Positions 181 through 38,891 of a stretch of 41,379 nt of DNA are shown piece after piece. How positions within the stretch are numbered: the first letter of the stretch is position 1; the number at the start of each line of letters is the position of its first letter. The notes under the pieces are model-generated. The model had not been told where the DNA came from. It was given only the letters and a program-made list of their open reading frames with translations, and ran no database searches. Source of the DNA: Candidatus Cloacimonadota bacterium (lineage in GTDB: Bacteria; Cloacimonadota; Cloacimonadia; Cloacimonadales; TCS61); the NCBI GenBank assembly GCA_021735645.1, contig JAIPGP010000025.1, positions 1 through 41,379 of the forward strand. Reading direction: 5' to 3'. Both the position numbers and the translations under genes were made by a program.

Positions 181-711
181 CCTAACTCGGATAAACCGAA
201 GCCAATTGAAAGATTATCAACCACGGACGTCACGGACAGCACTGACAATGTAAGAAAAGAACGGATTTATTCTGTAGAGACTATTCAAGTTAAGTGAATG
301 ATATCATTGTAGAATTTCCATTTTGGCTAGATAAAAGTGCGCATATCCATCATATTTATCAATTTTATGGAATTGACTGGCATCCTCCGCCGAAATTTCT
401 CCAGTTTGTTGTTTTCATCTTCACCCTGAAAGGGCGTAACTACGGCAAAGCGGGGCTGTTTCAAAGCCCCATCGTATCAAGACCATTCTGGTCTTGGTCA
501 GGAGACCGTGAAAATTGAAATAAAAGATAAGTTTCTGTATAATAATGTGTTATCTGTTATCTTAAAAAAAATACAGAAACCCAGACCAGGGATGGTCTGG
601 ATACAATAAAGAGGGCTGTGAAACAGCCCCGATTCAAAATCATATTAAGTCCTCACCCTCCCGATCTTGATTAATTGTATTTCCGCGAAGAAGGTTATGA
701 GGCTTGCTGCT
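181..711. other. Gene-poor stretch with repeat fragments and two mirrored hairpin pairs
   Basis: No convincing gene. It holds a CCACGGA-type repeat (219-255), a hairpin pair GGGGCT...AAGCCCC (452-470) plus AAGACCA-TTC-TGGTCTT (479-495), and a second pair in mirrored order: CCAGACCA-GGGA-TGGTCTGG (581-600) plus GGGCTGT-GAA-ACAGCCC (613-629). The two pairs are inverted copies of the same composite, with stems diverged but still pairing. The open frame at 294-518 is made largely of these repeats and is not called. Confidence 0.7.
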
Positions 712-1776
712 CTATTTATCCAGATCAATGAGCTGATAGCTGCTATTGCCTAAACCGAGTTTTTCAGCATATTCAATTTGATCTTTTCCGCTGGTTCCAT
801 TTACAGCAGAGAAGGTGTCATCATGTCCATAAGCTTTATTTACCAGATCAAGGGAGGCTTTTTCCAGAGCGACAATATCTCTGGAAGCCAGAATACCGAT
901 ATCATCAATGAAAGGTGATGCTGCGCGGGCACTGCAATCGCAATCTTTTGATATATTAATCAGCAGATTGATGTAAACCGCAGGGTAGTGCTGAGAGATT
1001 GCACTGGCATATTCCACCAGTCTTTCATTAAAAACATTATTATCCGTACTGCCCCAGGGAACGCGCATTGTAGATGTAGGGCAGGTGCCAATGCACATGC
1101 CACAGCCGATACATTTATCCATGTCGATAACCAGAGGATCCAAAGTGATGGCATTCACAGGGCACTGGCTCACGCACATACCGCAGGAAATGCAGCGGGA
1201 AGCTTTATAGACCGGCATTGAAGAGGCATGCATAGCCATTTTACCTGGAATTGCAGCCAGGCCCATTGCCACGTTTTTGATTGCTCCACCAAATCCGGCT
1301 AAACCATGTCCTTTGAAATGGGAGACTATCACCAGATTATCATAATTATCCAGATGAGTGCCTACATATATTTTATCAAAGTATTTTCCCTTTACTGACA
1401 GCTCTTTTTCTCCTTCAGAATCCAGAATATCAATTGGGGCATAGCCAAACCCGTGTTCTTTTGCCAGATCAATATGAGATTCCGTAATGCGTCTTTTACT
1501 GCGGTAAAGAACATTGGTCTCAATAAAGCTGGCATTGAGCTTTTCCACTAAGGGCTTCAATAGTTCCGGGTCGATGAAATTCTGATTACCGTCTTCTCCA
1601 AAATGTACTTTTATACCTGTTTTTCCCGTAAATTCAGTATCTAAGCTATTAAATACATGCAAAACTCCTGCAGGAGAAATATCCGAGGTGAAATATACTG
1701 GTGATTTTTCCTTACTGTTCGCTGCAAGGCAGAATATTAATAATATTATTATTCCCAGCCAGATAAAAATTTTCAT
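712..1776 (-). CDS. DUF362 family protein with two [4Fe-4S] ferredoxin motifs, exported
   Basis: The 354-residue protein begins with a hydrophobic signal or anchor (about residues 4-19), followed by a DUF362-type domain and a 2x[4Fe-4S] ferredoxin insert. The cysteine motifs are [12 protein letters not shown] (195-206) and [12 protein letters not shown] (222-233), each a full CxxCxxCxxxCP. The segment around [17 protein letters not shown] (152-168) is typical of DUF362. A good ribosome-binding site (GGAGGA) lies 6 nt before the ATG. The family's reaction is not established; electron transfer is inferred from the clusters. The N-terminal hydrophobic stretch suggests export or membrane anchoring, but Phe precedes the Cys in LIFC, so a lipobox is unlikely. 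It is a single-gene unit, transcribed away from the arsR operon. Confidence 0.85.
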
Positions 1777-2222
1777 GCTTTCCTCCAGATTAATTTGCTC
1801 ATCTATATGGATTTTATTTTTTCCGATTTAAATTAAAGCTGTCAAATAATAAAATTCTACGAAGTCACTGAAGTGACTACACCTCGCACAATATAACGAC
1901 CACCAGATGAATCTGGTGGTTAATGAGAGTGGTGTTTGCCGTGAAAAAGCGGTGCGGCATGAAGGTGGGACGAGAACTACGAGCAGTTATCTAATCTATT
2001 ACAAATTATATCCTGAAAATGTTTAGCAGTTCTCCTAAAAATGCTTAATCGGGGACGATTAAGCTACGTAAAAATGTTTAATCGGGGGCGATTAAGCTAC
2101 GTAAGTACACCTGTATTGAAATCAGGTGATAATGGTCGTTATCTGCGCCCCACTTGGAAATACCCGGCGGTGCACGTCTAACTTAGCAGGGGAATGATGA
2201 AGTGAGAGCAAAAAAAGCTTGA
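1777..2222. repeat. Intergenic cluster of perfect short palindromes
   Basis: This spacer holds at least five hairpins: AGTCACT-GA-AGTGACT (1863-1878), ACCACCAGAT-GA-ATCTGGTGGT (1899-1920), GCTTAATCG-GGGA-CGATTAAGC (2043-2064) with a tandem near-copy one 33 bp unit later (2074-2105), and CACCTG...CAGGTG (about 2108-2128). The motif GGTCGTTAT beside the last one recurs inverted at about 1891-1902, so the group is framed by an inverted repeat. No gene is visible. Confidence 0.75.
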
Positions 2223-2248
2223 CCTATTTGGTTATTTAGCCAAATAGG
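2223..2248. promoter_or_regulatory. Palindromic operator in front of arsR
   Basis: A perfect inverted repeat, CCTATTTGG (2223-2231), 8 nt spacer, CCAAATAGG (2240-2248), lies 35 nt before the arsR start codon. A TTGACC hexamer (2219-2224) overlaps its left arm and TATATT (2250-2255) follows its right arm. Neither spacing is ideal: 25 nt from TTGACC to TATATT, or 16 nt if TTGGTT at 2228-2233 is the -35. Size, symmetry and place fit an ArsR/SmtB dimer site, so autoregulation is inferred. Confidence 0.75.
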
Positions 2249-2282
2249 TTATATTGTATTTATTAATAGATAAGGAGTGATT

Positions 2283-2618
2283 ATGGCGGAGCATAAATGT
2301 GGTTGCAGCAGCGGCGGCGGATGTCAATGTGATAGTTATGAGCAGGAGGCGGGGATATTTAAGGCGATGGGTCATCCTTCGCGTTTGCAGATGATCATGG
2401 CACTGGCGGAGGGCCGCAGATGCGTATGTGAATTACAGGAACTTGTAGGCTCAGATATATCTACAGTATCACGTCATTTGAATGTATTGAAAGATCATGG
2501 GATAGTGAGTTTTCAGAAAGAGGGTAATTATTATTATTACCGATTACTGATGCCTTGTGTACTTGATTTTGTGAATTGTATCAGTAAAGAGAGGGGCTGC
2601 CAGTGTTCACCTGGTTAG
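2283..2618 (+). CDS. arsR: ArsR/SmtB-family metalloregulator
   Basis: This 111-residue winged-helix repressor has the As(III)-type metal site Cys-Val-Cys at 47-49 (RCVCELQEL, compare the ELCVC motif of ArsR), followed by the recognition helix DISTVSRHLNVLKDHG. It is unusually cysteine-rich (10 Cys), with a CGC...CQC cluster at residues 6-16 and CQC at 106-108. The start is the ATG at 2283, because AAGGAG (2272-2277) sits 5 nt before it; the upstream in-frame GTG at 2277 lies inside that ribosome-binding site. The gene leads a six-gene operon and its stop overlaps the next start. It most likely represses the operon until arsenite or a similar thiophile binds. The metal is inferred from the CVC motif only. 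Confidence 0.92.
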   Translation: MAEHKCGCSSGGGCQCDSYEQEAGIFKAMGHPSRLQMIMALAEGRRCVCELQELVGSDISTVSRHLNVLKDHGIVSFQKEGNYYYYRLLMPCVLDFVNCISKERGCQCSPG

Positions 2619-3568: not shown

Positions 3569-3582
3569 GGAGAAGATTAATA

Positions 3583-3861
3583 ATGGAAATCAAGATCTTA
3601 GGAAGTGGCTGTAAAAAGTGTCATCAACTTGAGAAGAATGTGCGTGATACCGTAGAGAAGCTGCAGTTAGTTGCAGATATCGAGCATGTGACAGATATAG
3701 AGAGGATAATCGGATATGGAGTGATGAGCACCCCTGCACTGGTGGTGGATAATAAAGTAGTATCTACTGGAAAGGTATTAAAGGATAAGGAACTGGAGAG
3801 AGTTTTCATGAGAAGTGAGAAGAAATGTAATCAGACCAGGGATGGTCTGGGTACGCAGTAA
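3583..3861 (+). CDS. Small thioredoxin-fold protein (thioredoxin_3 type)
   Basis: 92 residues. GSGCKKCHQLE gives the redox CxxC at Cys10 and Cys13, and MSTPALV supplies the cis-Pro at residue 51. This matches the compact glutaredoxin-like group often encoded beside COG0701 permeases. It is cytoplasmic (no signal) and could reduce the permease substrate or pass electrons to the CcdA-like protein encoded next. Odd: the last ten residues (83-92, NQTRDGLGTQ) are encoded by a copy of the intergenic hairpin repeat (3829-3858), so the native C-terminus has been extended or replaced. The fold should be complete before that point. Confidence 0.9.
   Translation: MEIKILGSGCKKCHQLEKNVRDTVEKLQLVADIEHVTDIERIIGYGVMSTPALVVDNKVVSTGKVLKDKELERVFMRSEKKCNQTRDGLGTQ
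3824..3861. repeat. Hairpin repeat forming the 3' end of the thioredoxin gene
   Basis: CAGACCA (3832-3838), GGGA, TGGTCTG (3843-3849), then GGTACGCAG. The left flank AATGTAATCAGA and right flank GGTACGCA also surround the hairpins at 30156 and 30891, and 581-600 has the same stem. Here the element lies inside an open frame and supplies the stop region. Confidence 0.85.
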
Positions 3862-3884
3862 TAATTAATCGGGAGAAAAGAAAG

Positions 3885-4580
3885 ATGCTGGAAAATATTG
3901 CGACGGCACTATATGGCTCGCCGGTAAGTGCGATACTTGCCTCATTTATCTGGGGGATTTTTAGCGTATTGCTAAGTCCCTGTCATTTATCGAGCATTCC
4001 TCTGGTGATAGGCTATATAAACCGTCAGGAAGGACTAAAGCCTCGGGACGGATTTCTGATCGGGTTGTTTTTTTCCTTAGGAATACTGGTTACCTTAGTG
4101 TTGATAGCCATTTTATCTTTTCTGGTGGGGATTCTACTGGGTCCGGTGCAGCTAATTTTTCAGATATTTGTGAGTTTACTGTTATTTTTAGCCGGTTTGT
4201 ATTTTCTGGAACTGCTGCCTTTCAATATAGGCATGGAAATGATCGACCGGGGGATAACAAAACACCGTTACTGGAATGGATTTTATCTGGGTATCTTATT
4301 AGGAGTAGGGCTGGGAGTATGTGCTCTGGCATTTATGGCACCAGTGCTGAGCATCAGCATCAGTAGTTTTGAGAGCATGCCCCTATTCAGTATTGGACTG
4401 GTAATGGCATTTATAATAGGGCATTGCGGTATAATCGCCGGGGCGGGAGGATTTCTGGAATTGATCAAGAAGCTTTTGCGTTGGAATAATCAGTCATCCG
4501 GCACAACGTATATCCGTAAGATCAGCGGTATAATACTGATAATAGCCGGGATATTCAATGTGCTAAAAAATGTATTTTAA
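3885..4580 (+). CDS. CcdA/DsbD-beta-like transmembrane thiol transporter
   Basis: 231 residues with about six membrane segments. The two redox cysteines of the family are visible: Cys33 in LSPCHLSSIP and Cys146 in GVGLGVCALAFMAPVL. CcdA-type proteins carry reducing equivalents from cytoplasmic thioredoxin to an exported thioredoxin. The flanking genes encode exactly such partners: a cytoplasmic CxxC protein upstream and an exported one downstream. Another possible role is cytochrome c maturation, but no heme gene lies nearby, so a dedicated role in this operon is more likely. Confidence 0.88.
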   Translation: MLENIATALYGSPVSAILASFIWGIFSVLLSPCHLSSIPLVIGYINRQEGLKPRDGFLIGLFFSLGILVTLVLIAILSFLVGILLGPVQLIFQIFVSLLLFLAGLYFLELLPFNIGMEMIDRGITKHRYWNGFYLGILLGVGLGVCALAFMAPVLSISISSFESMPLFSIGLVMAFIIGHCGIIAGAGGFLELIKKLLRWNNQSSGTTYIRKISGIILIIAGIFNVLKNVF

Positions 4581-4592
4581 AGGAGACAAGAG

Positions 4593-4916
4593 ATGAGGAT
4601 GTTAGCGGAATTTTTTCCTGAGTTTAGTGAGAAGTTATCAGAGCTTGATACTTTATATGAATCCAGTCGCAGTATTGATGAGAAGACATATCAATTCATT
4701 TGTTTTGCCTTATCGATCAAGTCAAGGTCAAAGCCTTGTGTATTAAAGCATTTTAAGGGAGCTTTAGAAGCTGGTGCCACAGTGCAGGAGCTGAGTTATA
4801 TTCTGGCGCTGGTGATGCGGGAGGCAGCGGGAGCAGATGACTGCTGGACGCATGATGTGATTGGAGACTGGAAGGAAATATTAAAAAACAACGTGAAATG
4901 CACGTGTGAGGTGTGA
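4593..4916 (+). CDS. Carboxymuconolactone decarboxylase/AhpD-like protein, monothiol
   Basis: 107 residues with an AhpD-like alpha-helical core: SRSKPCVLKHFKGALEAGAT (44-63) followed by the VQELSYILALVMREAAGA helix. The family's CxxCxxxH site is reduced to SxxCxxxH (Ser46, Cys49, His53), so it cannot form the usual internal disulfide. Other cysteines (Cys37, Cys84, Cys103, Cys105) could substitute. A GGAG site precedes the ATG. A redox or peroxide-related role with the neighbouring thioredoxins is inferred. It lacks the features needed to call a true decarboxylase. Confidence 0.8.
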   Translation: MRMLAEFFPEFSEKLSELDTLYESSRSIDEKTYQFICFALSIKSRSKPCVLKHFKGALEAGATVQELSYILALVMREAAGADDCWTHDVIGDWKEILKNNVKCTCEV

Positions 4917-4918
4917 TA

Positions 4919-5320: not shown

Positions 5321-5438
5321 TTACGAGAAAAATATTATCTTCGGGGGAATATTAGGCAGGTATACTGTAAGTAATGGAATGAATTATGCTTAAATAACGG
5401 GGTATGAGAAAAGAATAGAAATTAATCGGAGGGTAAGG

Positions 5439-8771: not shown

Positions 8772-8796
8772 GAATTTCTTCCTTGGAAATAAGAAT

Positions 8797-8829
8797 AGCC
8801 TCGTTCTGTAAGGGACGGGGCTTTTTTTT
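8797..8829 (+). terminator. Rho-independent terminator after the C25 protease gene
   Basis: AGCCTCGTTC (8797-8806), loop TGTAAG, GGACGGGGCT (8813-8822), then a run of T to 8829. The RNA stem closes with two G-U pairs. Confidence 0.9.
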
Positions 8830-9602: not shown

Positions 9603-9615
9603 TCGGAGGCAAGCT

Positions 9616-11829: not shown

Positions 11830-11843
11830 AGGCAGGAGGCAAA

Positions 11844-13775: not shown

Positions 13776-13837
13776 TATCGGTGGCGCATTAGCGTCCAAG
13801 AAAACAATGAATTTTAATTTAAAAACAGGTGAGATAT

Positions 13838-24415: not shown

Positions 24416-24936
24416 ATAGAAAAACACTGTTAGCACTGTTAACATTGAAAGTGTTTATGGGGACGTGAACCGTGATCCGAAACTCGGTACTTGGAACCTG
24501 GCTGATGAAGTGGGGGCAATTATATTTCGACTCACGACTCACGATATAACCGCGAAAAATGTAATGTAAGATTGTTTACCACAGAGGGCACAGAGAACAC
24601 AGAGGTAATGTAATGTGTTTTTTAGGGTGAACAGTGATTAGTGAACAGTGAATTGCAATGTAATCAGACCAGAGATAATGTAAGATAATTAACCACGGAA
24701 CACACTGACCACACGGACAAATGTATTTTTTAGGGTGAACAGTGAATTGCAATGTAATCAGACCAGAGATAATGTAAGATGATTAACCACAGAGGCCACA
24801 GAGAACACAGAGAAAACCAGAAAAGGTAGTTCATTGTATCCAGAGCATCTTGCTCTGGGATTATATTTATTTCACATTTTACTTTTTACAATTTTTCATT
24901 TAAACTTCAGGGAAACGAGGTATCTGTAAAACAAAC
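24416..24936. repeat. Repeat-packed intergenic region after pilD
   Basis: No gene. Contents: a CGACTCACGACTCACG fragment (24529-24545); three CCAC(A/G)GA...CACNGANNACAC modules (24579-24605, 24692-24718, 24786-24816); a 56 bp direct repeat (24641-24696 and 24735-24790, one mismatch) beginning GTGAACAGTGAATTGCAATG and containing a half hairpin CAGACCAGAG; and the hairpin CAGAGCA-TCT-TGCTCTG (24841-24857). The two 56 bp copies are so alike that a recent duplication is likely. Confidence 0.85.
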
Positions 24937-24966: not shown

Positions 24967-24999
24967 GACTCGGCAATAAGATTGATAGAGGAGTTGAAT

Positions 25000-27459
25000 A
25001 TGAAGTATTATCATGCTATTATGTGTATAATGATTTCTGTTATGATTATTGCCCTGCTCACCAGTTGCGATAAAAGAGATAATGATAACAGTGATTATGA
25101 AATTGTTTCCCTTTCTATTAGTCCGTCCCAGCTATATGCCGATAATAATGCTGCCACGAATTCGCAGATTGAAGTCAGAGTAGACGATAATGCTGGTATC
25201 CCGGCAATGAATATTACTGTTTTCTTTGAAACTGATCTTGGTATTATAATAAATAGTGCTGTCACGGATAGCAGCGGTATAGCCCATTCTATTTTCAGGG
25301 ATAACGGTCAATCCGGCATTGCTCATATTATTGCCAGTCTCTCTGAGGATGGCAGCCAGGCAGTCACTGATTCTCTAACAATTCTTCCCTTTCTTTATAA
25401 TATTTCATCAATGACGGTTAATCCCCATACTCTGTATGCAGACGGGAATATGATGACTCATTCGGAAGTAAGCATTACTGTAGAAGATAATAATGGTTTT
25501 CCGACAGCCGGAGCACCTGTAATATTTGCAGCTGATCTGGGCTATATTCAGGGTAAGGTATATACGGATGAATCTGGAGTAGCTTTCACACAATTTAATG
25601 AAAATGGAATTGTAGGCACAGCTCATATATCTGCCTGGATAGAAGGTTATGAAAATATTCAGGTAGTCCGTGATTCTGTAGAAATACTACCTACTCCCTA
25701 CCTGAATATTATCAGCATAACTGCAAATCCTGAGGTGATATTCCTGGATAATGGAGTCACTTACAGTGAGATAGAAGTTATGGTTCAAGATCATAATGGC
25801 ATGGCAGCACCTGATGAAGATGTGTATTTTAGAGCCAGTATTGGTAATATAATATCACATGTGGTCACAGACGTTAATGGGTTAGCAGTTTCTTCTTTCT
25901 GGGATAATGGTGAAGCTGGGATAGCCGAAATAGATGCATTTGCCGGAGTGACAGATACCACTATCTGCGTAACTATCCTGGACGGAAATGTCACTGAGCT
26001 TAACCTGCAGGTCTCTTCTTCTGATCCCATTATCAATGAGGTAATGGAAGTTTCTGCTTCTGCTGCTAATGACTCGGGTTTAGTACCGGATGGCAAAGAA
26101 ATCACTTTCAGCACCGAACTGGGTTTCTTTCAAATCTCGGAATCTGATCCCACACCTGAGGGACAATCTATCACCGCTTCCACACTCAATGGCATTGCCA
26201 CTGTATATCTGAATGCCGGAACTCAAAGCGGCACCAGTCTGGTTACGGCAGAAGTAATCGCAGATGCAGCCGGAAACACCCTGACGGATACAGAAGAAAT
26301 CACTATCCATGAAAATGATGTGAGCCAGCTTCATTTTACTTCTGAGCCATTTACGATCATGGCGTGTGATGATAACACTTTTTTCCACGGATTAGTTCTT
26401 GAACTTCTGGATAGTAATGGAAATCTGATATTATCTCCCCGCGAAGTCTGGTACAAATTTCTCACTCATCCCGAGGGCAGCAATATAGAAAATATCGTCT
26501 ATAACCTGACGGATTCCACCAGCGTTATTTCCAATGAAGGACAAGCAATCGTATTTTTGCACAGCGGAACTCAAACTGGTGCTATTGCCATACAAGCCTG
26601 GGCTCGCAATGCTGAAGATCAGATGATTTCCGCGGTTTTTGAGGATATCAGTGTTGTTGCAGGTGTTCCCGCTCAATGCCAGATAAATATCTCTGGCATG
26701 AATTCCGGCATAGATATGGGAGGTGGTATGTGGGCTCTGGAAATCTCAGCTTACCTAACTGATGCCTGGAGTAACCCTGTGGCTGATGGCACTTCAGCAT
26801 ATTTTTCTATTCGGCCTAATCTTGATTATGCCAGTATTGGGGATGGTGGCGGACCTGTAGGCAATGAAAACCTGGCAGGTGAAACCGTGGCAGGTACTGC
26901 TTTTGGTACTTTCGCTTTTTTTGGTGAATTCACTAATGAAATGGTAAATTTTAATGTAGATACCATTAATGATATAACTTTTGAACAGGAACTTGCACTT
27001 CCACTTCAATTTGGAGAAATCACTATGTTGTGCAGTCCCATTCATTGTGACTGGGTTGAAGCAGGTGATGAAGAGGATAAACTCACCCAGTGCCGGATAA
27101 CTGTTCAAGATGGTCAGCAGAATCCCATCAGCAATCAGCGTATTATGTTCTCCAGCACATTAGGTGATCCTACTGATGAAAATATTCATCCCGTGCTGGC
27201 TGATATCGATGATCCGGTTATCCTGGAATTATACGACTGGGAAGGGATCAATGAAGATACAGACCCCTATGATGGCTATACCGGCTGGTATGAAGGTCAT
27301 TTGGGCAGGCTCTATAAATACGTGGCATTCCACAAATATGAATGCCCTCAACCAATTCCAGAACCACCTGGCATGACAACTGGTGTGATCACTGCCACAA
27401 TATACGGCACTCAAATATCCGCTAATCAGACAATCTCACTGTTCAGGTATACGGATTGA
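25000..27459 (+). CDS. Large Ig-like (Big_1) repeat lipoprotein, copy 2
   Basis: 819 residues from the ATG at 25000 (AGAGGAG 6 nt upstream; a longer frame from TTG 24937 would begin inside the promoter). Lipobox IALLTSC (Cys23). Compared with copy 1 it has one additional N-terminal Ig module (VSLSISPSQLYADNNA) but lacks the fourth, central one, so total size is similar. Shared stretches such as LGYIQGKVYTDESGVA and EDVYFRASIGNIISHV show recent common origin. The C-terminal block CSPIHCDWVEAGDEEDKLTQC...FHKYECP...RYTD is conserved. It has its own promoter, outside the pilus operon. Function unknown; outer-membrane surface location inferred. Confidence 0.85.
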   Translation: MKYYHAIMCIMISVMIIALLTSCDKRDNDNSDYEIVSLSISPSQLYADNNAATNSQIEVRVDDNAGIPAMNITVFFETDLGIIINSAVTDSSGIAHSIFRDNGQSGIAHIIASLSEDGSQAVTDSLTILPFLYNISSMTVNPHTLYADGNMMTHSEVSITVEDNNGFPTAGAPVIFAADLGYIQGKVYTDESGVAFTQFNENGIVGTAHISAWIEGYENIQVVRDSVEILPTPYLNIISITANPEVIFLDNGVTYSEIEVMVQDHNGMAAPDEDVYFRASIGNIISHVVTDVNGLAVSSFWDNGEAGIAEIDAFAGVTDTTICVTILDGNVTELNLQVSSSDPIINEVMEVSASAANDSGLVPDGKEITFSTELGFFQISESDPTPEGQSITASTLNGIATVYLNAGTQSGTSLVTAEVIADAAGNTLTDTEEITIHENDVSQLHFTSEPFTIMACDDNTFFHGLVLELLDSNGNLILSPREVWYKFLTHPEGSNIENIVYNLTDSTSVISNEGQAIVFLHSGTQTGAIAIQAWARNAEDQMISAVFEDISVVAGVPAQCQINISGMNSGIDMGGGMWALEISAYLTDAWSNPVADGTSAYFSIRPNLDYASIGDGGGPVGNENLAGETVAGTAFGTFAFFGEFTNEMVNFNVDTINDITFEQELALPLQFGEITMLCSPIHCDWVEAGDEEDKLTQCRITVQDGQQNPISNQRIMFSSTLGDPTDENIHPVLADIDDPVILELYDWEGINEDTDPYDGYTGWYEGHLGRLYKYVAFHKYECPQPIPEPPGMTTGVITATIYGTQISANQTISLFRYTD

Positions 27460-27469
27460 AGAGGTTAAT

Positions 27470-27627
27470 CGTGAGTAGAAATTCGTGAGACGTGAATCGT
27501 GAGTCGTGAGACGTGAATCGTGAATCGAAACTTGACAGGTGGGTGTGGAGCTGCGTATTCAGAGCTTCCAGCTCTGATCATATTACGTTTCGACTCACGT
27601 CTCACGACTCCCGTCTCACGTCTCACG
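27470..27627. repeat. Composite palindromic repeat (CGTGAGTCG type), copy R1
   Basis: Arms of imperfect CGTGAGTCGTGAATCG units (27470-27529) face ACTCACGTCTCACG units (27591-27627). Between them lie CTTGACAGG, GCTGCGTATT and the hairpin CAGAGCT-TCC-AGCTCTG (27560-27576). It is inverted relative to R2 and R3. Its right end abuts AAAAGGAGG, the ribosome-binding site of the next gene. Confidence 0.9.
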
Positions 27628-27646
27628 TTTTTAAAAGGAGGATGTT

Positions 27647-30097
27647 ATGTCTTTACAAAGATTGATTTTTAATGTGATCATTGCGCTGTTATTCTGTCTG
27701 CTGCTCATGAGTTGTGACAGTCGCGATGAAGAATATTACAGTGAAATAAGTTTTATTTCCATAATTCCTGATACCCTTTATGCTGATAACAATGAGGAAA
27801 CTTACTCAAATATAGAAGTTATTATCACCGATAATAATGGCAATCCTGTCCCAGGAAAACACATTAATTTTGAATCTGATCTGGGATACATACAATTAGA
27901 AACTTATTCCTTGGATGATGGACATGCCTCTGCTGTTTTCCACGATAATGGCATACCGGGTATTGCTCACATTTATGCCAGTTTGGAAAATGAAAACCAG
28001 GTATTTTCTGATTCACTCAAAATACTATCTGTACCCTTTTTGATCACATTTATGTCTGAATATCCAGATTTACTGTGGGCTGATGGCAGTAATAATACCT
28101 TTTCTGAAATCAGAGTCGGAGTAGAAGATATGCAGGGCTTCCCAGCCCCCGGGATTCCGGTACATTTTTCTACAGATTTAGGCTGCATGCCGGCACAGGC
28201 ATATACAAATGATGCTGGTGTAGCTCTTACATATTTCAATGAGGAGGGAATTCCCGGAACAGCACATATTTCTGCCTGGATTGATGAAGATTACGGACAG
28301 GTAGTGAAAGATTCCATAGAGATTATCCCTTTATATCAATACAGTATCCAAAGTATTACTGCTAATCCTGATACAATATATGCAGATAACGGTATCACCA
28401 GCAGCACCATAGAAATTATGGTGCAAGATCAATACGGCACTCCGGTTGCTGATCTGGACGTCTGGTTTCTGACTGATATTGGCTGTATCATCTCTCATGT
28501 GAATACTGACCACAATGGTATAGCTGCTACAAACTTCTGGGACGATGGAAATACTGGTATTGCCACAATTCGCGGTTTCGCTGGCACAGCAATAGACACG
28601 ATTCATGTAAGCATAATAGAAAACGAGGTTATATCTTTCTGGTTGAACGAAATACCGGATCTGGCTGCTGTCAATACATTGCTGCTGGTTACTGCTGCGG
28701 CTCAGAATGAATATGGAGCCGTGCCAGACGGAAAAGAAATCTTTTTTACTACAGAAATGGGTTTCTTTCAAGTAAGTGAAAATGATAATACATCTCTGGG
28801 AACATCGATTTCTGCTTATACTGAAAATGGTTCAGCTACTGCCTACCTTAATACTGGAGAACAGACAGGTTTTAATCAGGTAAGTGCTCAAATTTCTGCG
28901 GATATTGCGGGTACAATACTTACTGATTCTGCTGAGCTGGAAATCATGCCTGCCTGGGTCAGTGAGATAGTTTTACCTATGTATGACATCAATATATTTG
29001 CCTGTAATGATAACAGCTATTCTGCTGGTATTCATATTGAGCTAAGAGATGTTAGTGGTAATCTGGTTCTTGATCCCAGCCAGGTCTGGGTCAAATTTCT
29101 CACACATCCTCAAGGCAGCAATATTGAAAACATTGTCTATAACCTGTCTGATTCCACCAGTGTAATCTCGTCTGAAGGTGAAGCGCTGGTCTATATTTAC
29201 AGTGGACCTCAAACCGGGATAATTGCTATTCAGGCATGGGTGCGTAATCCCAGCGGACAAATGATCTCCGCTGTTTGTGAGAATATTATGGTAGTTCCTG
29301 GAATGCCGGCTAATTGTGAGCTCAGTATGGATGGTATTGATGAAAGCTACAGCTATAGTGAAGGCTATTGGAATCTGGAAATATCTGCTTACATTACTGA
29401 TGATTGTGGTAATCCTGCTGCTGATGGCATGGCAACGTATTTCTATATGGACCCTGAACCTGATTATGCTTCATTGATTTTTGCTGATGCTTATATTGGT
29501 AATGAAAATCAGCAAGGCAATTCCCTGCCAGGTATGTCATTTGCCTCTATTACTTTTGATGGAGCTTTCACTAATGAAGTGATCAATCTTAAAATAGATA
29601 TGGGTAATAATTTTAATTTTGAAGAGGAATTTACTCTTCCGCTTCAGTTTGGTGAGCTATCTATGATCTGCACTCCTATTCATTTAGATTGGATAGAGGA
29701 AAATGATGAAGATGACAAACTTACCCAATGCCGGGTTACTGTACATGATGGTCAGCAAAATCCAGTCAATAAACAGCGGGTCATGTTCTTTTCCACAGCC
29801 GGATTCCATACTGATGAAAACATCCATCCCATAGAATCTGATATCACTGACCCCGAAGTTTTACAATTATACGACTGGCAAGGTCTTAATGAAGATGATG
29901 ATCCATATGATGGATTTACTGGCTGGTATGAGGGAGATCATGGCTTATTATATAAATATGCCGGATTCCACAAGTATGAATGCCCTCCACCTGTCCCAGC
30001 TCCACCAGGTATGACAACTGTCGTCATCAATGCCATCATAGCAGACACACAGATATCTGTCAGTCAGGCGATTACTTTGTTGAGATATACGGATTGA
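27647..30097 (+). CDS. Large Ig-like (Big_1) repeat lipoprotein, copy 3
   Basis: 816 residues, lipobox CLLLMSC (Cys24), AAAAGGAGG 5 nt before the ATG. It shares the domain order of copy 2 (three N-terminal Ig modules from ISIIPDTLYADNN, a GKEIFFTTEMGFFQ module, and the conserved C-terminal block) but is the most divergent. The second Cys of the CTPIHCDW motif is Leu (CTPIHLDW), while QCR and FHKYECP remain. No promoter is evident other than in or before repeat R1, so it may be read through from copy 2. Function unknown; probably the same surface role with altered specificity. Confidence 0.85.
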   Translation: MSLQRLIFNVIIALLFCLLLMSCDSRDEEYYSEISFISIIPDTLYADNNEETYSNIEVIITDNNGNPVPGKHINFESDLGYIQLETYSLDDGHASAVFHDNGIPGIAHIYASLENENQVFSDSLKILSVPFLITFMSEYPDLLWADGSNNTFSEIRVGVEDMQGFPAPGIPVHFSTDLGCMPAQAYTNDAGVALTYFNEEGIPGTAHISAWIDEDYGQVVKDSIEIIPLYQYSIQSITANPDTIYADNGITSSTIEIMVQDQYGTPVADLDVWFLTDIGCIISHVNTDHNGIAATNFWDDGNTGIATIRGFAGTAIDTIHVSIIENEVISFWLNEIPDLAAVNTLLLVTAAAQNEYGAVPDGKEIFFTTEMGFFQVSENDNTSLGTSISAYTENGSATAYLNTGEQTGFNQVSAQISADIAGTILTDSAELEIMPAWVSEIVLPMYDINIFACNDNSYSAGIHIELRDVSGNLVLDPSQVWVKFLTHPQGSNIENIVYNLSDSTSVISSEGEALVYIYSGPQTGIIAIQAWVRNPSGQMISAVCENIMVVPGMPANCELSMDGIDESYSYSEGYWNLEISAYITDDCGNPAADGMATYFYMDPEPDYASLIFADAYIGNENQQGNSLPGMSFASITFDGAFTNEVINLKIDMGNNFNFEEEFTLPLQFGELSMICTPIHLDWIEENDEDDKLTQCRVTVHDGQQNPVNKQRVMFFSTAGFHTDENIHPIESDITDPEVLQLYDWQGLNEDDDPYDGFTGWYEGDHGLLYKYAGFHKYECPPPVPAPPGMTTVVINAIIADTQISVSQAITLLRYTD

Positions 30098-30113
30098 ATC
30101 GGGAGACGAAATC

Positions 30114-30267
30114 CGTGAGTCGTGAATCGTGAATCGAAATATAATGTAATGTAATCAGAGCTGGAAGCTCTGGGTACGCAACTGGGTACGCAGCTGGGTA
30201 CGCAGCTTCGCGTTTGCCTGTCAAGTTTTCGACTCACGACTCACGATTCACGGATTTCGATTCACGT
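30114..30267. repeat. Composite palindromic repeat, copy R2
   Basis: CGTGAGTCGTGAATCG arms, TAATGTAATG, hairpin CAGAGCT-GGA-AGCTCTG (30156-30172), then tandem 12-mers (GGTACGCAACTG / GGTACGCAGCTG), CTTCGCGTTTGCCTGTCA, and TCGACTCACGACTCACG arms. It lies between convergent genes. Its last TTCACG supplies the stop codon (30262-30264) and the last sense codon of mntP. Confidence 0.92.
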
Positions 30268-30807
30268 CTTCAAAACCATCTTCACGGCAATTCCTATCAG
30301 GATCACTCCACCAAACACGTCTGCATAGTTCCGCAGCAGGCAGCCGGAAATCTTACCGGCATACACGCCAATAATAGAAGTGCAGAAAGTGACAATACCG
30401 ATAATAATCACCGGCTGGATAATTCTGAGGTGCACAAGCTGAAAACTCACTCCCGTGGCAAAAGCATCAATACTGGTGGCAATTGCCAGCAGCAGCAGGG
30501 TTTTATGAGAGCTAAAATCGTTCTTAATACTGCACGGCTTCCGGCTGTCAGCAATCATTTTAATACCGATAGCTGTTAAGATCACAAAGGCGACGTATTT
30601 CTGAAAAGACCCGATAAAATCACTGAATGATGATGCCAGCAGCCAGCCAAATAAAGGCATTACCGCCTGGAACACGCCAAAATACAGCGCTATGCGGAAA
30701 GCATGCTGTAAATGATTTTTCTCAATTGTCAGCCCGGCGGTAATAGATACTGCAAAGGCATCCATTGCCAGTCCCAGGGCGATAAAGATGATTGAGATTG
30801 TGTCCAT
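30262..30807 (-). CDS. mntP: MntP manganese efflux pump
   Basis: 181 residues, six membrane segments as two three-helix repeats with the paired signatures GLAMDAFAVSITAGL and ATSIDAFATGVSFQ, whose Asp residues are essential in the family. The protein exports Mn2+ from the cytoplasm. The ATG has only a weak AGGA upstream, formed by the edge of repeat R3; the stop codon lies inside repeat R2. No manganese riboswitch is visible in the short leader, which is filled by the repeat. Confidence 0.93.
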   Translation of the reverse strand: MDTISIIFIALGLAMDAFAVSITAGLTIEKNHLQHAFRIALYFGVFQAVMPLFGWLLASSFSDFIGSFQKYVAFVILTAIGIKMIADSRKPCSIKNDFSSHKTLLLLAIATSIDAFATGVSFQLVHLRIIQPVIIIGIVTFCTSIIGVYAGKISGCLLRNYADVFGGVILIGIAVKMVLKT

Positions 30808-30818
30808 TTATTATTCCT

Positions 30819-31008
30819 GTGAGTCGAAATTCGTGAGTCGTGAATCGTGAGTCGTGAGTCGAAATATAATGTAATGTAATGTAATGTAATCAGAGCTGGA
30901 AGCTCTGGGTACGCAACTGGGTACGCAACTGGGTACGCAGCTGGGTACGCAGCTGCGTACAATGCTTCGCGTTTGCCTGTCATTTCGATTCACGATTCAC
31001 GACTCACG
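30819..31008. repeat. Composite palindromic repeat, copy R3 (longest)
   Basis: CGTGAGTCG arms, four to five TAATG pentamers (30866-30890), hairpin CAGAGCT-GGA-AGCTCTG (30891-30907), four GGTACGCA(A/G)CTG 12-mers, CTTCGCGTTTGCCTGTCA, and TTTCGATTCACGATTCACGACTCACG. Same order and orientation as R2, with two more 12-mers and extra pentamers. It occupies the whole gap between mntP and the terminator of the acyl-CoA dehydrogenase gene. Confidence 0.92.
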
Positions 31009-31037
31009 AAAAAAAAGGCTGCTCGCAGCTTTTTTTT
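31009..31037 (-). terminator. Rho-independent terminator of the acyl-CoA dehydrogenase gene
   Basis: An A-run, GGCTGC-TC-GCAGC, and a T8 run (31030-31037) form a symmetric hairpin flanked by A and T tracts, usable in both directions. It overlaps the stop codon of the minus-strand gene. Confidence 0.85.
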
Positions 31038-32181: not shown

Positions 32182-32810
32182 ATATTCCTCCAATTACATT
32201 TTCTGAAACTGATTCATCAAAATTTACTAACCATGATTTAGTCAAGGGATTACTAATCGAGGGGAGGAGGGGACGAGGGAAGGAGGGAAGGAGGGAAGGA
32301 GGGAAGGAGGGAAGGAGGGAAGGAGGGAAGGAGGGGACGAGGGAAGGAGGGGACGAGGGAAGGAGGGGACGAGGGAAGGAGGGAATGAGGGGGAGGGGGA
32401 GAGCGAAGAATATTAACAACTGAACACACGGAAAAGAAAAAGTAATGTAAAATTTAAAATGTAAAAAGTAAAATAAATGTAATGTAAGACTATTAGCCAC
32501 GGAACACACTGAACACACGGAAAATGTAATGTGAATGTGAAATTAGCAGGATTGTATCAAGACCATCCTGGTCTTGGATTATATTACATTTAATTTTTTT
32601 TTACATTTTACATTGCGAAGCCCCCTCTATCCCTCAATCCCTCAATCCCTCAATTCTTCTTCTTCTCGACTCACGACTCACGTCTCACGAACCTCGATTC
32701 ACGACTCACGACTTACGATTCACGTCTCACGACTTACTATTTCCTTGACTATATTTTACCCGATAAGAAATTAATACATAAAAACATACTACGGAATCGT
32801 AGGAGGATTT
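32182..32810. repeat. Repeat-packed spacer with octamer purine array
   Basis: Contains a purine array (32259-32402) of 8-mers GGGAAGGA, passing into 16-mers that alternate GGGAAGGA and GGGACGAG, with at least 17 octamers; CCACGGAACACACTGA modules (32497-32521); the hairpin CAAGACCA-TCC-TGGTCTTG (32558-32576); pentamers CCTCAATC(C) (32632-32653); and CGACTCACGACTCACG arms without a core hairpin (32668-32738). Open frames here are low-complexity and are not genes. The downstream gene's -35-like TTGACT is at 32745-32750. Confidence 0.85.
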
Positions 32811-35087: not shown

Positions 35088-35337
35088 TCTTTTAGTGGAC
35101 AGTGGACAACATGACTTCGTGAAAATGCGAAAGTGCGAAAGTGCGATGGCACGAAAACAGGACTGCGGGACAACTCGAAGATGAGAAAGGGAGAAAATGG
35201 ACAGTGGACGCAGTGGACGCAGAGGACGCAGTGGACGTGAATCAGAGGACATGAATCAGTGGACGGGCATTTCGTCCACTGATTAATGTCCACTAAGTCC
35301 ACTGCGTCCTCTGCGTCCACTAAGTCCACTGTCCACT
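35088..35337. repeat. Long imperfect hairpin between convergent genes
   Basis: Bases 35199-35265, built of GGACGCAGT/GGACGCAGA units, pair with 35273-35336, built of GTCCACTAA/GTCCACTGC, around the 7 nt loop GGCATTT (35266-35272). The stem is about 65 bp with small mismatches. Upstream (35107-35165) is a copy of the GCGAAAGTGCGATGGCACGA repeat also found at 38171. The hairpin sits between two gene ends and could act as a two-way transcript end, but it has no U-run. Confidence 0.85.
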
Positions 35338-35937
35338 TTATTCCACTTCTTTATTTTCTTGATTATTCTTTCTGGCGTCAATTCTGGCTTTGTGCATTCT
35401 TTCGGAGAAGCCGCCGCTGTTTTGGAAATCTCGGGCTAAACGCTGGATCTGGCGGTCTAAAAGATAGCCGGCTACATTTACCAGGGTGAGGGCTGCATTG
35501 GCTGAATATTCCGGGTAGAGGATGTTTGTGTTTTTTTCGGGGCTGCGTTTAGCGGCTTCTATTATCCAGTCTGCCACCTGGTCAGCAGACTGGCATCTGC
35601 AATCAATAAATTCCTGTCTGAGCGGATCATCCCGCTGCCACTGGTTAAGATTCTTCTGTCGCAGGAAATCCTCGTAATCCAGCTTCAGCTCTTCCAGGCT
35701 TGATCTGGCAACTTGAGTGAGTTTCAGTTCAGTCTGGCGGGAAGTTGCGGAGGCTTCGGAGCCTTCGGCGATATTTTGCACTCCACTACGCGCTGCCTGA
35801 ACCATTTGATCCCTTGTCCTGCTATACTTATCTATATAGCGCTCACAGAACCTGACAGTGATATCAAATACAAGCTGAGCGATTTGAAAACTCTTTAATT
35901 TACGATAGCCACCATGTTTTGGGATTAGATCAGGCAT
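35338..35937 (-). CDS. Four-helix-bundle protein with suffix domain
   Basis: 199 residues, all-helical. YRKLKSFQIAQLVFDITVRF and RDQMVQAARSGVQNIAEGS are the hallmark of the 23S-rRNA-insert/four-helix-bundle family (compare S23), and the C-terminal extension (DRQIQRLARDFQNSGGFSERM) matches the suffix-domain subgroup. The biochemical role is not established; members are thought to bind nucleic acid or proteins. AGGAGT precedes the ATG. Its 3' end abuts the long hairpin. Confidence 0.85.
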   Translation of the reverse strand: MPDLIPKHGGYRKLKSFQIAQLVFDITVRFCERYIDKYSRTRDQMVQAARSGVQNIAEGSEASATSRQTELKLTQVARSSLEELKLDYEDFLRQKNLNQWQRDDPLRQEFIDCRCQSADQVADWIIEAAKRSPEKNTNILYPEYSANAALTLVNVAGYLLDRQIQRLARDFQNSGGFSERMHKARIDARKNNQENKEVE

Positions 35938-36878
35938 TTTTATTTACTCCTGTACAAAGTATAGTATTAGCTTTGTTGGTGGCAAGCAAAAAAACTTTGG
36001 AAAGGGAGAAAGGGAGAAAGTGGACAGTGGACTTAGTGGTAGAGGGAAGGAGGGGGAGAAGAGGGGAAGAGGGAGTGAGGGATGGGGAGAAGATGGGAAA
36101 ATGTGAAGGCGCGAAAGCATGAAAGCACGAGGGCACGACTTCTGGAAAGCATGACAACTTGACTTCTTGAAAACTTGACTTCTTGAAAACTTGACTTCTG
36201 GACTTCTTGACTAAATAACTTCCAAAATCCGAGTTCCGAGTCACGAGTAACGAAAAAAAAACATTTTTCGCGGTCTTAGCGGCTTTCGCGGTTTAGTATT
36301 CTCCTTATTATCATTTCATAAAACAGTTTCCCATTTCCATTCGGATAATTCACTAATTCACCCCTGCCAATTCCTCGGAGATATCTGTGGTTGAAAATAA
36401 ATTGAAGGTCAGAAGGTTTGAAGGTTGGAGGGTTTGAAAGTTTGAAGGTTGGAGGGTTTGAAAGTTTGAAGGTTGGAGGGTTTGAAAGTTTGAAGGTTGG
36501 AGGGTTAGAAGGTTAGAGGGGGAGAATTCGAAGATGAGAAGGGAATATTAATTGAAAATTAAAAATTGAAAATTTAATGTAATCTGTGCTTCGCACCGTG
36601 AATAGTGATTTGTGAACAGTGAATGGGAAAATGGAGAGAAAGTGTGAAAGTTAGAGGGTTTGAGGTAGTTCTTTAAATTTCCAATCACCAGATAGTTACA
36701 TTACATTCTAATTTTCAATTTTACATTTTCAATTTTTAATTTTTAATTATCCCCGATCATCTGTATTCTATTCCCTCATTCAACATTCAAAATTATTGTA
36801 GGACACTCCCTGTAGCTTCCCTGTGGCTCCGTCCAATCCCAACAGATGAATCGTAATTTTTGCTCTTTAATCTGTAAA
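35938..36878. repeat. 940 bp of tandem and dispersed repeats
   Basis: No gene seen. From left to right: purine tract (36044-36090); GCGAAAGCATGAAAGCACGAGGGCACGAC repeat (36109-36140); TTGACTTCTTGAAAAC tandem (36157-36210); a GAGTCACGAGTAACG fragment (36236-36251); a 24 bp tandem array of 3.7 identical units starting GTTTGAAGGTTGGAGGG (36416-36504); TTGAAAATTAAAAATTGAAAATT; small hairpin GTGC-TTC-GCAC (36587-36597); GTGAACAGTGAATGGG; and AT-rich TTTTACATTTTCAATTT. These modules recur elsewhere in the window. Confidence 0.8.
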
Positions 36879-37490
36879 TTATAGTGCTTTCCAATAAGCT
36901 GAGACCAGAAGTTCTTTTCCGTTTAATATTCTGCCTTCGTAAACGCCACTTTTTTCTACTTCACCCACACCTTGGGGAGTTCCTGTCATCACAATGTCTC
37001 CATCGTTCAAAGTAAGGAAGGATTCAATTTCCTGCAGAATTTGATCCGGCTTATATATCATCTGCTGAACATTACCGCTTTGCAATGTTTTACCATTGCC
37101 ATCGAGTTCTAAAGTAAGTTCTGGCTTTATCTCATCGATCGGAACAAAATCACTGAAAAGTGCTGCTCCATCAAATGCTTTAGCTCGTTCCCAGGGAAGT
37201 CCTTTTCCTTTGAGTTTGGATTGCAAAGTTCTTTTTGTTAGATCCAAACCAAATGCTACAGCGACAAATTTATGGTCTTCAACCAGGAAGCAGATCTCTC
37301 CTTCATAATGAATTGCTTCCCGATCATAGGAAATAAGCTGGTGACCAATAGCTGAATTTGGCTTGATAAAAAGTACCATGCTTTCGGGTATTTCACTATT
37401 TAATTCTCTAATATGCTCTACGTAGTTTCTTCCCACGCAGACGATTTTGGAAGGTGTAATCTTTCTTTTCCCAAAATTAACTGTTTTCAC
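36879..37490 (-). CDS. Fumarylacetoacetate hydrolase-family (FAHD1-like) protein
   Basis: 203 residues from the GTG at 37490 (GGAG 6 nt upstream; the TTG four codons earlier overlaps that site). Motifs: KIVCVGRNYVEHIREL, KPNSAI, the metal ligands Glu63 and Glu65 in HYEGEICFLV, GLDLTKR with Asp83, KAFDGAALFSDFVP and IVMTGTPQGVG. It is a compact single-domain member, similar to FAHD1 acylpyruvate hydrolase/oxaloacetate decarboxylase or small isomerases. The substrate cannot be fixed. It stands alone, with its nearest gene a minus-strand zinc-ribbon protein 78 nt upstream. Confidence 0.88.
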   Translation of the reverse strand: MKTVNFGKRKITPSKIVCVGRNYVEHIRELNSEIPESMVLFIKPNSAIGHQLISYDREAIHYEGEICFLVEDHKFVAVAFGLDLTKRTLQSKLKGKGLPWERAKAFDGAALFSDFVPIDEIKPELTLELDGNGKTLQSGNVQQMIYKPDQILQEIESFLTLNDGDIVMTGTPQGVGEVEKSGVYEGRILNGKELLVSAYWKAL

Positions 37491-37567
37491 AATATACTCC
37501 AATTCAATAATTTATGTTGCTTTTTTTAATGTTTTAGTTTTTTCTCTGTTACATTTCCTGCTTTTGC

Positions 37568-38023
37568 TCAATCCCAACAGATGACTTCATATTCGTCTTT
37601 ATATAGGCTGTGTTTACCGCATTCAGGACAGTTATAATTTTTCAGGTCTGGTAATTCATCGCTGTCATTTTGAGCTGATCTATTAACTGGCTCCAGGATA
37701 GATTTGCAGGTCGGGCATTTGTAATCAATTTCAAAAATCCCGCCTTCATAAACTAATTTGATATAGAACCTTTCAAATAACATCTTGCAACTGTTGCAAT
37801 GATATATTTTATGTCCATAATCGCGATCGAGTTCTGCGTGTTTATCTTCTATAAGAGTTCTGATCTGTTCAATAGTTTTCTTTGATCTGACCATTTGCGG
37901 GAGCATTCCATGTTTGGGATCAAAGTCCAATACTCTTATAGGATTATACATCATGCCGATACCAAGCATAAATGTCTCGGAATAATTGCAGTTACTGCAT
38001 TTAATTTGAATACTTGAACCCAT
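37568..38023 (-). CDS. Zinc-ribbon protein of unknown function
   Basis: 151 residues with four CxxC knuckles: Cys9/12, Cys76/79, Cys103/106 and Cys132/135, enough for two zinc sites. Between the first and second is a helical stretch (RSKKTIEQIRTLIEDKHAELDRD). AAGGAG precedes the ATG. The N-terminus (MGS...C9xxC12) and C-terminus (Y..ICWD) resemble the divergently oriented gene at 38402, so the pair probably arose from a common ancestor. No named family is recognised. Confidence 0.8.
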   Translation of the reverse strand: MGSSIQIKCSNCNYSETFMLGIGMMYNPIRVLDFDPKHGMLPQMVRSKKTIEQIRTLIEDKHAELDRDYGHKIYHCNSCKMLFERFYIKLVYEGGIFEIDYKCPTCKSILEPVNRSAQNDSDELPDLKNYNCPECGKHSLYKDEYEVICWD

Positions 38024-38401
38024 TAGATATCTCCTTTATGCTAAATATAACTTTTTGAGATACATTGGCAAGGGAATTTTTTGAAGAAGGGTGAAGAATA
38101 GAACACAGGGGGGGGGGGGGGGGGGGGGGACGAAGAGGGGAAGAGGGGAAGAGGGGAAGAGGGGAAAATGAGAAAGTGCGATGGCACGAAGGCGTGACTT
38201 CTGGAAAACATGACTGCGGGACTTCTTGAAAACTTGACTGGGAGAAAACACGAAAGCGAGAAAGCACGAGGGCACGACTTCTGGAAAACTTGACTGATAG
38301 AAGGGGGCAATTGAAAATGTAAAATGGGAATTATAGAATAATCCAAGACCAGGATGTCTTGATACGATGATAGCAATACTTTTATATTAGAGGTGATCAT
38401 T
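38024..38401. repeat. Divergent intergenic region with a 22-G homopolymer
   Basis: Contains 22 consecutive G (38108-38129), then GAAGAGGGGAAGAGGGGAAG (from 38132), the GAAAGTGCGATGGCACGA repeat (38171-38190), GACTTCTTGAAAACTTGACT, AAAGCACGAGGGCACGACTT (38261-38280) and a degenerate hairpin CAAGAC...GTCTTG (38344-38361). The G-run is long enough for slipped-strand variation. Confidence 0.9.
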
Positions 38402-38779
38402 ATGGGAAGTGGTTATAAAGCGCGTTGTCTTGATTGCGGTAAGGAGTTTATGGTAAGTGAAGGTCCTGGCTTTCATACTGTCATTTTACATTGTGATAAA
38501 TGCGGTAAAGAAACTGGTATTGGGCATGATGAAGACGATGTTCTGTATTTTGAATATGTACATGCAATAATTGGACTGCCCCATGACGTAAATGATAATA
38601 TCGAAGAATGTGCTCCAGAGATCCAAAAGGTTATCAGGAAATGCCGGTAAATTGAAAAGAAGTTAGCCGGAGAATGTAAATGTGGAGGAAATTTCACATA
38701 TTTTGCACCACCCCGTTGTCCGAAATGCCACTCATCCAGGATTGAAGATACACAAACAGAGTATATAAACTGGGATTGA
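38402..38779 (+). pseudogene. Zinc-ribbon gene interrupted by an in-frame TAA
   Basis: The ATG at 38402 (GAGGTGAT 4 nt upstream) opens a frame that stops at TAA 38648-38650 after 82 residues (Cys9/12 and Cys31/34). The same frame continues for 42 more codons to TGA 38777-38779 and encodes LAGECKCGGNFTYFAPPRC, then PKCHSS...EYINWD, which is an obvious third zinc knuckle (CxC...CxxC). Its ending resembles the C-terminus of the neighbouring gene at 37568 (EVICWD). So either a sense codon has mutated to TAA, or the stop is a sequencing error or is read through. If the stop is real, the product is the 82-residue fragment. Confidence 0.75.
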
Positions 38780-38793
38780 TGCAGCTATGCTGC

Positions 38794-38891
38794 CGTGAAT
38801 CGCATTTCGTGAGACGGGAGACAAAAGTGCGTATCCAGAGCTTCCAGCTCTGATTACATTCTGCCTTCCGACTCACGAACCTCGACTCACG
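38794..38891. repeat. Composite palindromic repeat, copy R4
   Basis: Short version in the same orientation as R1: CGTGAATCG...CGTGAGACGGGAG arm, GTGCGTATC, hairpin CAGAGCT-TCC-AGCTCTG (38836-38852), GATTACATT, then CCGACTCACGAACCTCGACTCACGG. It has no 12-mer array. It begins 15 nt after the end of the interrupted zinc-ribbon frame. A GCTTAATC-AAGA-TGATTAAGC hairpin follows at about 38927-38946. Confidence 0.88.

Follow-up and report, generated by a model that had tools for sequence, protein, structure and literature searches.

A genome-wide family of GTAY-headed hairpins in a Cloacimonadota bacterium probably represents REP-type elements mobilised by a RAYT

We analysed a 41,379-nucleotide contig of a Candidatus Cloacimonadota bacterium (GenBank assembly GCA_021735645.1, contig JAIPGP010000025.1, positions 1 to 41,379 of the forward strand; hereafter, the window) that carries a recurring short hairpin. 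The hairpins form a real, genome-wide and very probably mobile family, and they are very likely repetitive extragenic palindromic (REP)-type elements mobilised by a REP-associated tyrosine transposase (RAYT) encoded on another contig of the same genome (C103); cutting and moving by this enzyme are proposed from sequence comparison. The observations behind this reading are the recurrence of the hairpins, their placement between genes, their arrays around RAYT genes in two species, differences at two orthologous junctions and covariation between their arms.

The initial annotation had listed nine hairpins in the window, and all nine are present at its positions (479, 581, 3832, 24841, 27560, 30156, 30891, 32558 and 38836). 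A covariance model identified a tenth copy, at 38336-38371, from which one base has been lost. The plan originally proposed, GTATC followed by stem, loop and stem, is shared by the sites but needed correction: all ten consist of a GTA[T/C] head, an 8-bp stem that starts immediately after it, a TCC, TCCC, TCT or TTC loop and a complementary arm. GATTA or ATTACATT often trails the second arm, and the flank GATTATATT that had been described as fixed is exact at 24840 and 32558 only, with ATTACATT, ATCATATTACG or other sequence elsewhere. Likewise, the stem assigned to 479 really starts at 478 (CAAGACCA), the stem at 581 is CCAGACCA, and the stems differ but still pair, as had been claimed, except that the foot pair is broken (C..A) at 3832, 30156, 30891 and 38836.

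On the forward strand, GTAT-headed hairpins occupy positions 468-504 (CAAGACCA-TTC-TGGTCTTG; 41.6 bits), 24830-24866 (CCAGAGCA-TCT-TGCTCTGG; 51.4 bits), 27549-27585 (TCAGAGCT-TCC-AGCTCTGA, with a T-A rather than a C-G foot pair; 45 bits), 32548-32584 (CAAGACCA-TCC-TGGTCTTG; 47.7 bits) and 38825-38861 (CCAGAGCT-TCC-AGCTCTGA; 42.8 bits). On the reverse strand, the head is GTAT at 573-610 (CCAGACCA-TCCC-TGGTCTGG; 38.1 bits), the heads-outside partner of 468-504, and at 38336-38371 (CAAGACATCCTGGTCTTG; 37.5 bits), where the 5' arm is one base short. It is GTAC in three further reverse-strand matches to the covariance model, at 3823-3860 (CCAGACCA-TCCC-TGGTCTGA) and at 30147-30183 and 30882-30918, which are identical to one another (CCAGAGCT-TCC-AGCTCTGA). 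Perfect hairpins with these loops number 13 in the window, compared to a mean of 0.48 and a maximum of 3 in 60 dinucleotide shuffles, and 7 of them also carry a GTA head, a combination that occurred in none of the shuffles. With filters off, the covariance model gave the ten sites, seven of which were in its training set, E values of 5e-6 to 3e-10, and copies on other contigs that were outside the training set reached values down to 5e-8. Two half hairpins that lack the second arm (AATGTAATCAGACCAGAGATAATGTAAG) were also observed at 24660 and 24754, within a 94-bp direct repeat, and hairpins 30147-30183 and 30882-30918 are bordered on their head side by 12-nt tandem copies of CTGGGTACGCAA/G (at 30170-30223 and 30905-30958); our guess is that these tandem copies arose by slippage of the hairpin end.

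The family is not confined to this contig, as its first description had allowed that it might be. The covariance model, built from 16 copies, was applied to 150 of 3,669 first-look candidates in the 3.77-Mb draft genome and returned 143 matches at E<=1 (128 at E<=0.01) on 46 contigs; 6 of 58 other genomes were positive as well. Under stricter filters, copy numbers in these seven of 59 genomes were 109 in the genome containing the window (G000), 27 in G001, 14 in G002, 23 in G015, 16 in G040, 4 in G048 and 1 in G029. The sequence fetched around the matches in the window's own genome contained 138 copies that pass E 0.01, with heads of GTAT (96), GTAC (25), GTAA (13), GTAG (1) or other sequence (3). 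When inner stem and loop were scanned without regard to the head, in loci that had been fetched with the head-containing model, GTA was found at 100 of 103 sites and the fourth base was never G. After leaving out five copies with short cores, the remaining 133 (cores of at least 19 nt) had TCC (74), TCCC (25) and TCT (24) as their leading loops and 23 different 5' arms, most of which fit the pattern C[C/A]AGA[G/C/T]C[A/T].

The hairpins had been described as lying mostly between genes and in both orientations, and this holds across the genome. Both strands are occupied, and no copy among the 138 lies within an open reading frame (ORF) of at least 200 amino acids, compared to 55.7 expected for random positions in the same loci, while 16 lie within any ORF of at least 100 amino acids, compared to 72.8 expected (ORFs were taken from ATG to stop inside the fetched stretch). 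Of 57 adjacent pairs, 20 are heads-out, 15 heads-in and 22 in the same direction, with inverted pairs and alternating arrays present at C103. The intergenic placement and paired stems would also suit structured RNAs, or terminators or attenuators, for which any covariation would reflect selection on RNA, and RNA roles have been proposed for REPs (PMC3733652). Nevertheless, a run of five Ts lies within 9 nt of the foot in only 6 of the 138 copies, for want of which we rejected terminators; moreover, both orientations occur, no Rfam family was matched at gathering score within the window, the hairpins form arrays around a transposase gene and one copy extends a coding frame. We consider it improbable that the family is primarily an RNA element. 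No finding here requires an RNA function, and a secondary RNA effect is possible.

The arms of these 138 copies (117 of them distinct) were compared with 500 column shuffles. Paired cells made up 94.2%, versus 79.9% in shuffled alignments, 105 cells were changed on both sides, versus 30.7, and the covariation score was 0.312, versus 0.075; no shuffle reached any of these values. Sliding the partner by one to three columns reduced pairing to 22.8-43.2%. Nearly all double changes (103/105) fall at stem pairs 2, 6 and 8, with none at pairs 3, 4, 5 and 7, and 23 of the 117 distinct copies lack pairing at the foot. The covarying arms reported by the initial annotation are thus in excess of column shuffles, for an alignment of related copies and a null that does not include duplication of an arm. 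This shows that pairing has been maintained, although the number of independent events is not readable from the covariation.

A partner for these hairpins is encoded in the same genome. Matches to Y1 transposases were found on contigs C120, C103, C52 and C42, the last of them below the cut-off, and the C103 gene (G000:C103:487-1077) encodes a RAYT of 196 amino acids with hairpin arrays on both sides, 16 hairpins lying within 500 bp of it, each with a GTAT head. In another species of this genus, the orthologous RAYT (G001:C243; 74% identical) is likewise surrounded by main-family hairpins. A substrate of a REP-associated transposase had been among the options first considered, together with the advice to look for a linked RAYT, and the flanking of RAYT genes in two species supports that option. 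Against Pfam PF01797 (Y1_Tnp; cut-off 23), the C103 protein scores 31.4 bits; it also matches TnpArep in PDB (4er8; E 3e-8), and of the three NCBIfam families listed, NF047646 (REP_Tyr_transpos) gave the top score, 69.2 bits. The HuH histidine and the motif tyrosine are invariant in an alignment of 23 of 30 RAYT loci; those omitted were L102, which has an inner stop, L105 and L108, whose frames are overlong or fused, L113, which is close to L106, L116 and L120, which are shortened, and L109. RAYT matches at E 1e-10 were obtained in 55 of 124 genomes.

The association extends to other RAYTs. At 170 RAYT loci, we scored hairpins that combine a GT[AG]N head, 8 bp whose pair score is 7 or more and a loop of 2-4 nt; 90 of the loci belong to Cloacimonadota genomes, and the other 80 are from named records that mostly represent other phyla. 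A single-protein search of the genome-contig collection found no relative; the 80 are the best of at least 303 matches in a profile search and hence represent near relatives rather than a sample. In total, 434 such hairpins were found in 157,636 bp near the gene, compared to 22 in 182,501 bp far from it. At least two hairpins were present at 57/90 Cloacimonadota and 30/80 other loci (on both sides at 48 and 28, respectively), with fewer than two at the remaining 33 and 50. Stems vary between loci, and the loops, read in the orientation of the head, are of TCC type in 262 of the 434 hairpins, its reverse complement in 8 and of other sequence in 164 (GCC, GCT and CCT among them). If the hairpins were instead derivatives of another transposon, akin to miniature inverted-repeat transposable elements, the RAYT would be a chance neighbour; the window copies do lie on a different contig from the RAYT, and G040, with its 16 hairpins, is outside the 55 RAYT-positive genomes among the matches listed. 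The RAYT association in two species and the frequency of multiple hairpins at Cloacimonadota RAYT loci make this very unlikely, and ordinary terminal inverted repeats are much longer than an 8-bp hairpin and its short flanks.

Orthologous junctions differ in the presence of the hairpin. At 3798-3884, between a thioredoxin-like gene (3583-3861) and a gene starting at 3885, the hairpin is absent in G001 and G015, and the matched blocks that lie 87 bp apart here are separated by 24 bp in G001. The last codons of the thioredoxin-like ORF come from hairpin 3823-3860; this extension is absent in both of the other genomes, and the protein that ends in ..KELEKLLGSE in G001 continues here through the hairpin to ..RSEKKCNQTRDGLGTQ. 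At the junction that contains 30882-30918, the hairpin of G002 has a different stem and the opposite orientation, and in G015 there is no hairpin, only terminator-like sequence. These comparisons are between species, with flanks about 67-85% identical and exact insertion ends unreadable. The symmetry and intergenic position of the hairpins and the nearly fixed stem letters AGA.C could also reflect immobile palindromic binding sites for a regulator or nucleoid protein, held by selection. We regard this as exceedingly improbable, given the conserved asymmetric loop of 3-4 bases, the asymmetric head, arms that change as pairs, dense arrays and the absence of the hairpin at orthologous junctions.

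In the mechanism that we favour, short non-autonomous elements would move as folded single-stranded DNA through the C103 RAYT, a putative HuH/Y1 single-strand nuclease-transposase. Recognition by the enzyme would depend on the four-base GTAY head, the TCC-type loop and pairing within the 8-bp stem, with several stem letters being free; stems would therefore diverge through compensatory changes, and head and loop would be kept. Biochemical data are available for group 3 RAYTs, where in vitro a broken stem pair seriously reduced cleavage, swapped stem letters reduced it moderately and certain loop letters were essential (PMC8266576). If transferable to the C103 RAYT, these properties would explain a fixed loop and head combined with paired, changeable arms. 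In the same study, a GTAC head abolished cleavage by the Stenotrophomonas maltophilia pair, and an altered head resulted in an altered cut site in the Marinomonas pair (PMC8266576).

Several results weigh against the assignment of the hairpins to a RAYT-mobilised REP system. By definition, a REP combines GT[A/G]G with a subsequent palindrome whose composition varies, and most REPs occur as inverted doublets (PMC3686654); the main family lacks this head (GTAG in 1/138), which a second family described below carries. Adjacent pairs outside C103 are mostly in the same direction (20 of 30, with 7 heads-out and 3 heads-in), whereas classic arrays alternate. The number of stem pairs with a double change (4, versus a shuffled mean of 3.7) was reached in 307 of 500 shuffles and that of further pair types (11, versus 10.3) in 217, and the covariation alignment was fitted to the structure, its copies share ancestry and its only null was the column shuffle. 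As for the enzyme, its NF047646 score falls below the curated cut-off of 80, and its tyrosine motif is Y---NA rather than the Y---NP of class 2, although the G001 orthologue has NP. Like G040, G015 is rich in hairpins (23), and the only RAYT match listed for it covers part of the query at 38% identity. Finally, the biochemistry drawn upon concerns group 3, and the C103 protein looks like subclass 2.4 (group 4). Other properties of REP systems were found: a short palindrome of variable composition (23 arms in 133 copies, 94.2% of cells paired), many copies that are almost exclusively intergenic (143 matches, 0/138 in long ORFs), and a cognate RAYT that is flanked by the repeats and has both the HuH motif and the catalytic tyrosine.

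We then compared the fourth head base with the residue that follows a conserved tryptophan in the enzyme, using a tree of 85 of the 87 loci that have at least two hairpins (L191, which is the same locus as L105, and L248, which has no tryptophan column, were dropped). The residue is glutamine at 35 loci, in 27 of which the fourth base is mostly G, and histidine at 21, in none of which it is; a mostly-G fourth base occurs in 8 of the 29 loci with another residue. Fisher's exact test, which ignores kinship, gave p values of 2e-8 (glutamine versus the rest) and 3e-9 (glutamine versus histidine). Among independent pairs on the tree, 14 contrast glutamine with any other residue, with 5.3 changing the same way, 1.0 the opposite way and 7.7 not at all (median p 0.22), and 4 contrast glutamine with histidine, at 2.6 to 0 (median p 0.25). 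After correction for ancestry, it is only suggestive that the head base follows the residue. The closest case is a locus in a Candidatus Kuenenia record (L128), which has glutamine with GTAG twice and GTAA once, while its sister pair, the C103 and G001 RAYTs, has histidine with GTAT and GTAA heads.

These data raise the possibility of a specificity switch in which the residue after the tryptophan sets the fourth head base, glutamine going with G and histidine excluding it, an idea that we put forward tentatively and hold to be somewhat less probable than not. Contacts of E. coli TnpAREP with GTAG include W94, Q95 and R104 (PMC6006769). Q95, the E. coli counterpart of the residue after the tryptophan, is one of several contacts that are relatively conserved in group 3 (PMC8266576). 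In E. coli, G160 and E161, residues that are absent in group 3, are reported as contacts of the final two bases of the head (PMC8266576), because of which our confidence in the switch was lowered slightly. If the switch is real, the change from GTAG to GTAY would have accompanied that from glutamine to histidine, head and enzyme changing together, and the cut site of the element would change too, given that the cut site is directed by the head in one pair that has been studied. The genome of the window would then hold both states, a histidine RAYT with GTAY hairpins and a glutamine RAYT with GTAG hairpins.

The second family follows the plan of the main one with an unrelated stem, GTAG-CTTAATC... 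In the window, it is represented on the reverse strand by hairpins at 2044-2067 (CTTAATCG-TCCC-CGATTAAG) and 38925-38947 (CTTAATCA-TCT-TGATTAAG), and by an imperfect tandem copy at 2077-2100 (CTTAATCG-CCCC-CGATTAAA), identified by reading and carrying no model score; all three have a GTAG head. The core CTTAATC..GATTAAG occurs at 71 sites in the window's own genome, 27 in G001 and 8 in G002, and the reversed pattern at none. A second RAYT of this genome, on contig C14 (L287; clipped by the contig start), has glutamine after the tryptophan, and all five counted hairpins adjoining it have a GTAG head, two of them with the core of window sites 2044 and 38925. The C14 RAYT is likely the partner of this GTAG-headed family.

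The main family would extend the RAYT/REP system to Cloacimonadota, with a head outside the accepted GT[A/G]G tag. Searches that rely on this tag, such as that in PMC6006769, would be expected to miss families of this kind, and an unusual four-letter tag may help to show how a RAYT recognises its target. To us, the most interesting part is the as yet unproven link between the head base and the residue in the enzyme; the pattern of glutamine and histidine would reduce the joint change of RAYT and REP to one residue and one base.

Other features were noted around the transposase genes and the hairpins. The ORF between two of the window hairpins (30262-30807), considered as a candidate transposase, was rejected because it encodes a manganese efflux protein (PF02659). 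A RAYT clipped by its contig start (L004; G000:C42, 11-523) repeats NLRRGRRSSQ six times in frame between its HuH and tyrosine motifs, recalling the in-gene REPs reported for subclass 2.4, with a hairpin downstream (CGAGGAGC-TCCC-GCTCCTCG). At L108 (G109:C4, 43-2520), which has hairpins on both sides, a RAYT lies in frame inside an open frame of at least 826 amino acids that runs off the fetched stretch, and the outer parts of this frame are, we presume from their motifs, related to DNA methyltransferases.

The window also contains other repeats. Arrays of the 7-mers CGTGAGT and CGTGAAT lie at 27459-27640, 30095-30275, 30818-31016, 32657-32745 and 38790-38900 and are inverted around a hairpin in several places, making up a single larger palindrome together with it. 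In G002, such an array follows the Mntp gene without a main-family hairpin, and arrays and hairpins can therefore be separate. Arrays with an 8-nt period, led by G, occur at 32259-32420, 35121-35200, 36030-36540, 38108-38300 and 40292-40400; the protein encoded among them at 35338-35937 is similar to the intervening-sequence protein of 23S rRNA, with a PF05635 score of 28.4 bits that is below the cut-off. Dispersed repeats of about 60-70 bp (1861-1932, 2127-2190 and 24557-24618) have many matches in G001 and G002. At the two contig ends, 43-145 and 41277-41379 form a 103-nt inverted repeat that is 99% complementary, representing an assembly end or a repeat.

Families with a GTAG head have been reported from Proteobacteria, Cyanobacteria, Chloroflexi and the PVC group (PMC3733652); in the full text of open-licence PMC articles on Cloacimonadota, we found no paper on REP/RAYT elements, the single match to RAYT being the name of an author. 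Among related systems, IS200/IS605 elements share a HuH/Y1 protein by sequence match, and the head at the foot of the hairpin recalls their guide sequence. They differ in that the C103 protein scores only 18.1 bits against the IS200 transposase family NF033573 (cut-off 55) and in that many hairpins here lie far from the gene. The group 3 pairs of S. maltophilia and Marinomonas resemble our system in their perfect palindrome and in that certain loop letters and pairing matter and stem letters matter less, although their head is GTAG, where GTAT and GTAC are usual here, and their RAYTs belong to another group. By its motifs, as distinct from published profiles, the C103 RAYT looks like TnpAREP subclass 2.4 (group 4), for which a median length of 194 amino acids, NH[IFV]H, WQ, YIxNNP and REPs inside the gene are described (PMC6006769). 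Its length, NHVH and tryptophan motif agree with this subclass, as do the in-gene repeats of L004, while WH in place of WQ and Y---NA in place of Y---NP set it apart. There is also a likeness to the REPtrons, that is, RAYTs with their REPs, REPINs or bacterial interspersed mosaic elements (BIMEs), known as GTAG families (PMC2817692, PMC3733652, PMC3686654): both consist of a short palindrome with a variable stem that is present in many copies between genes and forms inverted pairs and arrays next to a RAYT gene, and the REPs of Stenotrophomonas further share a perfect stem of 8-9 bp immediately after the head. In contrast to these systems, the main family has a GTAT, GTAC or GTAA head, a TCC-type loop and, outside C103, neighbours that mostly point in the same direction. 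Because it lacks the GT[A/G]G head, we place it within the REP/RAYT system as a variant and do not count it as an ordinary GTAG REP.

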